A stretch of 64,000 nucleotides of DNA. It comes from Lasiosphaeria ovina (taxonomy: Eukaryota > Ascomycota > Sordariomycetes > Sordariales > Lasiosphaeriaceae). Position numbers and translations under genes: made by a program. The stretch's first letter is position 1; every line of letters starts with the position of its first letter. Of the stretch, positions 60,835-63,378 are shown piece by piece. The stretch covers positions 196,001-260,000 of the forward strand of contig JAULSN010000004.1 of NCBI GenBank assembly GCA_033439765.1. Reading direction: 5' to 3'. The notes under the pieces were generated by a model. The model was not told the DNA's origin, did no database searches, and saw only the letters and a program-made list of their open reading frames with translations.

Positions 60835-61740
60835 CTACATAAAGTCGTCCTCCCAGTCGGAGCCGCGGTCCTGGTTGCTCATGCCGGCCATGTTCTCCTC
60901 GGTGAAGATGTCGTCGTAGGCGTGGTCCTTCTGCCACTTGAGCTCCTGGCGCTCCTTGGCGACGCGCGCCTCCTCCTTGCGCCGCGCCTGCTGCGCGGCC
61001 TGGTCCTTCTTGCGAAGCTCGCGCAGCCGGCTCTCCTTCTCCTCGCGCAGGTCCGGATACTTTTCCTCCTTGGTCTTGTTGAGCCGGTTGACGATGGCGT
61101 TCTCGCGCTGCGGTACCACTATCCGCTTGACCTGGGGCATGGTTAGGGGGGGGGGGGGGGTGTGTTATCAGGGGTGGGGGGAACCTACCTTCTTCGGATC
61201 CTTGAAGCTCACCTGGCCGACGGCCATGCTGCCGTCCTTGCGCAGGTTGGACCATGGCGTGTAGATGACGGTGATGTTGTCCTTCTTGTTGCCTGCGGGG
61301 TTCAGTCACGGCATGTTTCGTCAGACACACAAACTCACCCTCGATCGAGTTGGCCTTGGTTAGCTGGACCAGGTCGGTGAGCAGGTCCTCGGGGATGTCC
61401 TCCCAGGTCTCGCCCTCGCGCAGCCGCAGGTAGATGTGCGCGCTGGACAGCTTGTCGACGTGGAACTGCGGTCAGAGCATGAGATGCGTCCAGACAGGAA
61501 GTGGGTTTGGTTTCATACCCTAGCGAGTCTCAGTCCACAGCTTGTTTCTGGTGGGAAACCAAGACCAAACTCACCAGACATCCTCTTCCCAGCCGTGCTG
61601 GATCAGCTCCTCGTCTGTTGCAGTCAGCGATGAGCGCGGGGCATGTAAGAGTTATTGATGGACATACTCTCAAACTTGTCCTTGCCGACGTAGACATAGG
61701 CCGGCGGATCGACCACGTTGGACGTAAAGTAGAAAACCAT
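60835..61740 (-). CDS. JLP2: CCDC25 / Jlp2 (NFACT-R domain protein)
   Basis: Proposed exons: 61740-61668, 61614-61575, 61519 (one base), 61465-61339, 61292-61189 and 61131-60835, giving 213 residues. The protein matches CCDC25 along its length: [58 protein letters not shown], then a charged coiled coil and a D-W-E-D-D-F-M end. The TG of the Trp codon ends one exon and F-H-V begins another out of frame with it. A lone G between CTAG and GTATGA supplies the missing base and restores the invariant Trp. Both flanking introns are then normal (55 and 53 nt). Mammalian CCDC25 is a membrane DNA sensor and yeast Jlp2 is uncharacterised; the domain is RNA/tRNA-binding in NFACT proteins. Confidence 0.9.
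61519..61519 (-). other. JLP2: Candidate single-nucleotide exon of CCDC25/Jlp2
   Basis: On the minus strand the context is GACTCGCTAG / G / GTATGAAACC. It supplies the third base of the Trp codon TG-G. Confidence 0.7.
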
Positions 61741-62268: not shown

Positions 62269-63378
62269 ATGGCGCCCCGGCTGCCGGCGCGCTGCTGGCG
62301 GCAGCTTCAGCCGACGTCGCTCTCGCGGCCCTCGCTCTCGCCCACCCTTCCACTCGGCCTCGCCCTCCCCCCCGCCGCCCGCCTCCTCTCCCACACCACA
62401 CCGCGCGGCGTCAAGTACGGGTGGAGCACGCAGTCGCCCAAGGCGCGGCCGCGGCGCTTCAACCAGCCGTCCATGGGGCTGCCGGAGCCGACGACGGGCC
62501 CGGCAGCCGCCCTCAAGCGGCGCGAGCGCACGACGCCCAAGAGAACAGGCGTGCTGGCCATCAAGAAGGGCATGACGGCGTTCATGGGGCGGAGCGGCAC
62601 GCGAATCCCGTGCACGGTGCTGCAGCTCGACCGCGTGCAGATCGTGGCCAACAAGACGCGGGCCCAGCACGGCTACTGGGCCGTGCAGGTCGGGCTGGGC
62701 GAGCGGCAGCCCGACAACGTCGGCGCGCCCATGCTGGGCTTCTTTGAGGCGCGCGGCATGGCCCCCAAGCGCGACATGGCCGAGTTCAAGGTGCGCGACC
62801 AGACCGGCCTGCTGCCCGTCGGCGTCCAGCTGCTGCCCGACTGGTTCCACATCGGCCAGTGGGTCGACGTGCGCGCCAACAGCCGCGGCATGGGGTTCGC
62901 TGGTGGCATGAAGCGCCACGGCTTTTCCGGCCAGGAGGCCAGCCACGGCAACTCGCTCAACCACCGCACCATCGGCACCGTCGGCCCGTCGCAGGGCGGT
63001 GGCTCGCGCGTACTGCCCGGCAAGAAGATGCCCGGCCGCATGGGCGGCCAGCAGGCCACGATTCAGAACCTGCCCGTACTGATGGTCGACAACGAGCTCG
63101 GCATCGTCGTGGTCAAGGGCAACATCCCGGGGCCCAAGGGGTGCACGGTCAAGATCCAGGACGCCGTCAAGAAGCCGCCCCCGCCGCAGGAGTTTATCGA
63201 CGAGACGCGCAGGGTGCTCGACGAGCGCTTCCCCGACGCCCAAGAGCGTCTGTCTGAGGCGCGCAAGAAGCACATGGAGCTCAAGGAGGCGCGCAAGCAG
63301 GGGCGGATATCCGAGATTCTCAAGGCGGGCGTGACGGGCGAGGACGTGCCCGAGGCCACGGAGAATGCGCGGGCCTGA
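62269..63378 (+). CDS. MRPL9: Mitochondrial large-subunit ribosomal protein uL3m (Mrpl9)
   Basis: Single exon, 369 residues from the ATG at 62269. The frame is open further upstream to 61840, but that part has no conserved character, and the chosen start gives a basic, acid-poor presequence (A-P-R-L-P-A-R-C-W-R). The uL3 fold follows: G-V-L-A-I-K-K-G-M-T-A-F, V-Q-V-G-L-G, G-Q-W-V-D-V-R-A-N-S-R-G-M-G-F-A-G-G-M-K-R-H-G-F-S-G, S-H-G-N-S-L-N-H-R-T-I-G, P-G-K-K-M-P-G-R-M-G and L-G-I-V-V-V-K-G-N-I-P-G-P-K-G. These are the L3 signature loops that reach toward the peptidyl-transferase centre. The charged C-terminal extension is typical of fungal mitochondrial versions. Confidence 0.95.
   Translation: MAPRLPARCWRQLQPTSLSRPSLSPTLPLGLALPPAARLLSHTTPRGVKYGWSTQSPKARPRRFNQPSMGLPEPTTGPAAALKRRERTTPKRTGVLAIKKGMTAFMGRSGTRIPCTVLQLDRVQIVANKTRAQHGYWAVQVGLGERQPDNVGAPMLGFFEARGMAPKRDMAEFKVRDQTGLLPVGVQLLPDWFHIGQWVDVRANSRGMGFAGGMKRHGFSGQEASHGNSLNHRTIGTVGPSQGGGSRVLPGKKMPGRMGGQQATIQNLPVLMVDNELGIVVVKGNIPGPKGCTVKIQDAVKKPPPPQEFIDETRRVLDERFPDAQERLSEARKKHMELKEARKQGRISEILKAGVTGEDVPEATENARA

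Follow-up and report, generated by a model that had tools for sequence, protein, structure and literature searches.

The window, by which we mean the whole 64,000-nucleotide stretch of Lasiosphaeria ovina DNA that was analysed, carries a CCDC25/Jlp2 gene on the minus strand from 61740 to 60835. Its spliced product of 213 amino acids differs from the L. miniovina protein (P0001) at 3 of 213 residues. P0001 matches PF05670 (NFACT-R_1) with 113.3 bits against a curated cut-off of 29.8, and its residues 1-179 align at an E value of 4.7e-63 with coiled-coil domain-containing protein 25 as found in PDB chain 7eof. Comparison of P0001 with RqcH gave an E value of 0.32, and the similarity to CCDC25 is long and not confined to the Rqc2/RqcH type. 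Judged by these comparisons, the gene is a fungal CCDC25/Jlp2 orthologue with an NFACT-R domain; JLP2 is the gene name given by some depositors. Genome-wide DNA and protein searches placed CCDC25/Jlp2 matches at one locus only, and the remaining PF05670 matches in the genome were two, adjoining each other on C32. The gene seems to be single copy, and a paralogue was rejected on these searches.

A uL3-like open frame at 62269-63378 on the plus strand, which by its motifs we take to be mitochondrial ribosomal protein uL3, is divergent to CCDC25/Jlp2, and the two share a short common intergenic region. At 61146-61160 the plus strand has a run of 15 G, which reads as C in the gene; it stands just upstream, in gene sense, of the CTAAC branch-like site in the intron between exons 5 and 6. 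A scan of viral contigs and prokaryote genome contigs for fungal CCDC25 DNA found none; a contig binned as uncultured bacterium holds a relative of the CCDC25 domain at 30% identity (L110:5001-5294).

Exons and introns of the CCDC25/Jlp2 gene, in positions of the window
Feature	Position	Strand	Description
exon 1	61668..61740	-	73 nt coding, ATG at 61740; spliced translation fits P0001
intron 1	61615..61667	-	53 nt, GTATGT...CTGAC...CAG
exon 2	61575..61614	-	40 nt, last letters GATGTCTG
intron A	61520..61574	-	55 nt, GTGAGT...CTGAG...GCTAG
exon 3 (candidate)	61519..61519	-	single G, third base of Trp38 codon TGG
intron B	61466..61518	-	53 nt, GTATGA...CTCAT/CTGAC...CGCAG
exon 4	61339..61465	-	127 nt, starts TTCCACGTCGAC
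intron exon 4/exon 5	61293..61338	-	46 nt
exon 5	61189..61292	-	104 nt
intron exon 5/exon 6	61132..61188	-	57 nt
exon 6	60835..61131	-	coding up to TAG stop

Splice solutions at the Trp38 codon

Exon 2, ending in ...GATGTCTG, is separated from exon 4, TTCCACGTC, by 109 nt (GTGAGT...CGCAG). As the initial annotation had noticed, a direct join of the two exons changes the frame; translation then stops after 72 amino acids. The annotation had proposed that CTAG/G/GTATG divides the 109 nt into a 55-nt and a 53-nt intron with a one-nucleotide exon, G61519, between them, and this division, with its sequence and coordinates, proved exact on the minus strand. One- and two-intron solutions leading from exon 2 to exon 4 were enumerated. 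Donors could be GT or GC, an AG as far as 60 nt inside exon 4 could be the acceptor, and no intron was shorter than 40 nt. Ninety solutions stay in frame to the normal C-terminus, seven of them with a single intron, and D-V-W-F-H-V-D-K is restored by just one of these 90 in-frame GT/GC-AG solutions, the one-base exon. The block completed by G61519 is identical in PDB chain 7eof (CCDC25), which bears out the earlier statement that the base supplies the Trp of a conserved block. The 22-nt exon (61519-61540) that the annotation had offered as an in-frame alternative was rejected, for it requires a first intron of 34 nt and the shortest of 40 introns inferred in the genome has 46 nt.

Chance estimates were obtained from 20000 dinucleotide shuffles of the 109 nt. 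The pentamer AGGGT, flanked on either side by 46 nt or more, appeared in 245 shuffles, AGGGT with a branch-like motif in both halves in 52, and AGGGT with both branch motifs and equally good splice scores in none. The same three patterns occurred in 7, 0 and 0 of the 447 other 109-nt GT...AG stretches in the window.

The splice signals were compared with a reference set from the same genome, consisting of 40 introns inferred from gaps between adjacent Pfam matches; some of these are doubtful, and all 40 trained the splice scores, while score quantiles were taken from the 35 without a residue-gap penalty. The reference introns measure 46-141 nt with a median of 65, the search having permitted lengths down to 38. 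Intron A has a donor score of 10.3, above the upper training quartile of 9.8, and a weak acceptor score of 2.8, under the 10th percentile of 3.7. Its branch-like motif, CTGAG, stands 10 nt before the intron end and is atypical against CTAAC or CTGAC. In intron B the donor (6.3) falls slightly under the lower quartile of 6.5 and the acceptor (5.5) is over the median of 5.2. The initial annotation had assigned a CTGA-type branch site to each intron, which calls for correction: in intron A the motif is this CTGAG, and the CTGAC of intron B lies 6 nt before the end, nearer than all 26 inferred branch sites (10-24 nt, in a procedure that itself favoured distances of 8-25 nt). Because it lies so close, branching in intron B is more likely at the CTCAT 14 nt before the end. 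Taken together, the splice signals of introns A and B are acceptable, not exemplary.

Gene models of relatives at the same codon

Three protein searches, of which the best 120 matches each of 3891, 3990 and 3949 were taken, yielded 313 distinct relatives. The 269 listed relatives with an ncbi source are referred to here as genome models, and individual records were taken as listed. The other 44, with lgn, jgi or ena sources only, come from short contigs, the longest under 5.3 kb, and their unbroken frames of 213-226 amino acids across the intron positions suggest that they are cDNA. Sordariomycetes were grouped as P0001-P0214 except P0100 and P0118, by listed names and, for unnamed records, by the list.

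Among the matches listed, the Trp codon is broken in 101 of the 186 Sordariomycete genome models and intact in 85, L. miniovina P0001 included, while the other three introns of the gene are broken in 2, 1 and 4 of the same 186. Non-Sordariomycete genome models in the list are broken in 7 of 83 cases, with 76 intact. No listed short contig is broken, whether Sordariomycete (0 of 26) or other (0 of 18), and the Trp motif is kept in all 44 of these putative cDNA sequences. If anything, broken models are under-represented, because the best-120 lists were ranked by score against intact queries.

The kinds of error in the broken models bear on the DNA of the relatives. Under the arrangement TG/A/G/B/TTC, where A and B are the two introns, a gene model is expected to go wrong in one of several ways: by prolonging exon 2 into intron A (W, then a TNN codon), by starting at exon 3 (W then V from GTN, or D then G from GGT), by ending either at exon 3 (R, from AG+G) or at the acceptor of exon 4 (NAG, giving Q, E or K), by dropping V-W, or by jumping to the AG within exon 4. 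Of 108 broken listed models, 107 were parsed and P0204, damaged upstream, was left out. All 107 fall into the classes expected from TG/..AG/G/GT..AG/TTC, under class rules drawn up once the data had been seen. V-W is dropped in 59, exon 2 is extended in 15 and a jump occurs in 13; another 10 start at exon 3, 5 end there and 5 end at the exon 4 acceptor. Exon 3 is thereby indicated by 15 of the 107, and the 72 with V-W dropped or a jump are explicable without it.

Two cases are particularly strong. The models P0147 (F. keratoplasticum) and P0165 (Fusarium sp. LHS14.1), whose sources presumably belong to the F. solani complex, can be read as one string, GGTGAGGTCGCATGGTCAAC plus one base, translated in two frames; such two-frame compatibility was found for 7 of 20000 random peptides, and F. 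solani P0113 fits the first two codons of the string. Thermothielavioides terrestris P0076 reads D-G-M-E...K-L-T-R-P-A-A-Q-F, which fits G plus a retained intron of 65 nt with a GTATGG start, CTNAC and a CAR end (GGN ATG GAR ...). Since gene finders put the starts of internal exons after AG, AG/G/GT is implied in the Fusarium solani complex and in Thermothielavioides. The mistranslated intron pieces in the 15 models suggest that these relatives have the same AG/G/GT.

Models entered under one species or genus name disagree at this codon. Fusarium avenaceum is intact in P0132, lacks the two residues in P0144 and in P0181 reads I-C before jumping to AHIY, and P0132 and P0181 agree at all 198 other positions. 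Clonostachys rosea has VWY in P0145 and a deletion in P0157, and the six listed Apiospora models contain five different junctions. V-W is missing from the Trichoderma reesei genome model P0194, along with 8 other residues; the short contig P0123, identical to it at 190 of 190 compared positions, has V-W. Similarly, the broken Glonium stellatum P0257 and the intact short contig P0227 are alike at 198 of 198 positions, and the broken Cenococcum P0264 and the intact short contig P0230 at 197 of 198. We read these disagreements as gene finders meeting a junction that lacks a canonical solution.

The gap at the codon could also be closed by one non-canonical intron of 108 nt, with ends GT..CA or, one base over, TG..AG, and with no one-base exon. 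Its removal would yield exactly the right mRNA, GATGTCTGGTTCCAC. Such an intron requires, however, a splice-site pair outside GT/GC-AG; it is long, yet still inside the inferred range here (46-141 nt, median 65). It also predicts no internal AGGGT, and it leaves unexplained the 10 models best read as starting at G/GT and the 5 ending in R (AGG before GT). We regard this explanation as very improbable.

Less credible again is that one canonical intron is used and the protein is altered, the intron being either 61579-61466, which deletes V-W, or 61574-61443, which deletes W-F-H-V-D-K-L-S-S. Both stay in frame, and public models take similar routes, V-W being dropped in 59 and exon 4 entered by a jump in 13 of the 107 parsed broken models among the matches listed. 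The second, a 132-nt intron with its acceptor inside exon 4, even has the best per-intron score among the 90 solutions (20.4 on a crude scale, vs 14.4 for the one-base-exon solution). Either intron nevertheless deletes a block kept in the 7eof CCDC25 chain and in 44 of 44 short-contig sequences, and for this the acceptor inside exon 4 was rejected. The first uses a GTCTGG donor, correctly described in the initial annotation as deleting Val-Trp, and was rejected on its donor score of -1.0, near the training minimum of -1.2. Finally, the annotation had left room for a base-call or assembly error that lost one base beside one ordinary intron, and this has next to no probability: an extra base would restore the phase with a single canonical intron, but a local error cannot break the same codon in 101 of 186 listed Sordariomycete genome models of many genera while the other introns of CCDC25/Jlp2 are mostly fine in listed models.

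We consider it highly probable that the Trp38 codon, TG/G, is split by two short spliceosomal introns and that the exon between them is the single G at 61519. Use of this exon in vivo in Lasiosphaeria ovina, the order of intron removal and the same base in relatives are inferred. The phase gap seems to be conserved throughout the Sordariomycetes, and perhaps further afield, and is probably due to the same one-base exon.

Probable intron removal, possible age and published one-base exons

The two introns would probably be removed in succession, since both sets of splicing factors are unlikely to fit on the AGGGT pentamer simultaneously. With either intron gone, a normal splice site would remain for the other, TGG/GTATGA or CTAG/GTTCC. 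Skipping of the base would give the frameshift with its stop after 72 amino acids, retention of intron A a stop directly after Trp38, and retention of intron B a stop one residue later. Where fungal introns are this short, the intron and not the exon is probably the recognised unit.

Broken models outside the Sordariomycetes, among the matches listed, belong to Coniosporium, Lophium, Glonium, Cenococcum, Bathelium, Cryomyces and Lichina. V-W is lost in all seven (P0232, P0250, P0257, P0264, P0283, P0296 and P0305), with Q instead in P0232. Because the near-identical Glonium and Cenococcum short contigs are intact, the gap may predate the split of the classes. Many of the 76 intact non-Sordariomycete models are, we assume, Pleosporales. 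It is slightly less likely than not that the exon goes back to an ancestor shared by Sordariomycetes, Lichinomycetes and Dothideomycetes (Glonium, Cenococcum, Lophium, Bathelium and others). In that case stepwise splicing would have preserved it in these classes, and groups such as Pleosporales would have lost it together with its introns.

At the ratchet points of recursive splicing no base is known to be left in the mRNA. Those described in Drosophila resemble the present arrangement in their juxtaposed acceptor and donor and in the stepwise removal that this suggests, but they lie in long introns (PMC8605326), whereas the two introns here add up to 108 nt and one base would stay. In a fungal mitochondrial rnl gene one base is likewise reported between two introns, which are group II and not spliceosomal introns (PMC12308204).

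The initial annotation had called a codon split around a one-nucleotide exon exceptionally rare in any organism; this has to be qualified, such exons having been published for plants and for Fusarium CYP621A. The Arabidopsis APC11 exon is, like the candidate of CCDC25/Jlp2, needed for the reading frame of a conserved gene, and it differs in that its base is an A, in that its region spans 422 nt against 109 nt, and in that it was proven by cDNA and base-substitution constructs (PMC4674806). The 1-nt microexons of plant APC11 and VPS55 are described as deeply conserved, absent from reference annotations and subject to intron loss in some lineages; they have RNA-seq and RT-PCR support, with alternative isoforms in some species (PMC8831610).

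A close likeness is Fusarium CYP621A, a fungal nuclear gene with a single G in AG/G/GT, where the base is needed for phase in a conserved motif and gene models are wrong (PMC12940212). Its abstract presents the exon as the first of one nucleotide in any fungal gene, and the paper, of 2026, reports 18 SRA reads from two species (PMC12940212). In CYP621A the G has the middle position in a Gly codon (PMC12940212), and in CCDC25/Jlp2 the third position in the Trp codon. CYP621A belongs to a P450 family with 20 orthologues of one genus, rarely expressed according to its authors (PMC12940212); CCDC25/Jlp2, in contrast, is a widely conserved gene with signs of the gap throughout a class and perhaps beyond. 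For the origin of the CYP621A exon it has been argued that one exonic base was lost at an intron boundary in the conserved motif and that the loss was then rescued by a cryptic AGGGT (PMC12940212). The CCDC25/Jlp2 exon may have followed the same route of base loss and rescue. A literature search of open-licence PMC papers, by title and start of abstract, found no report on CCDC25/Jlp2 gene structure.

CCDC25/Jlp2 would add a new fungal one-base exon, seemingly older and broader, whose breadth and fraction of broken gene models are what make it notable. It exposes a systematic annotation failure, with 101 of the 186 sampled Sordariomycete genome models among the matches listed wrong at one codon. 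Its signature is a conserved codon at which models go wrong in various ways and transcript-like sequences are intact. Protein databases could be searched with it for further one-base exons, and one-codon discordance among models of the same species could serve as a screen for more of them. Should the exon date from the common ancestor of the three classes, few one-nucleotide exons on record would be as old or as widespread, and it would account for the wrong gene models that about half of the genomes sampled from one class contain. An exon of one base tests the lower limit of exon recognition, with no exonic sequence left for the splicing machinery, and a case common to many culturable fungi would open the mode, order and accuracy of its splicing to direct study.
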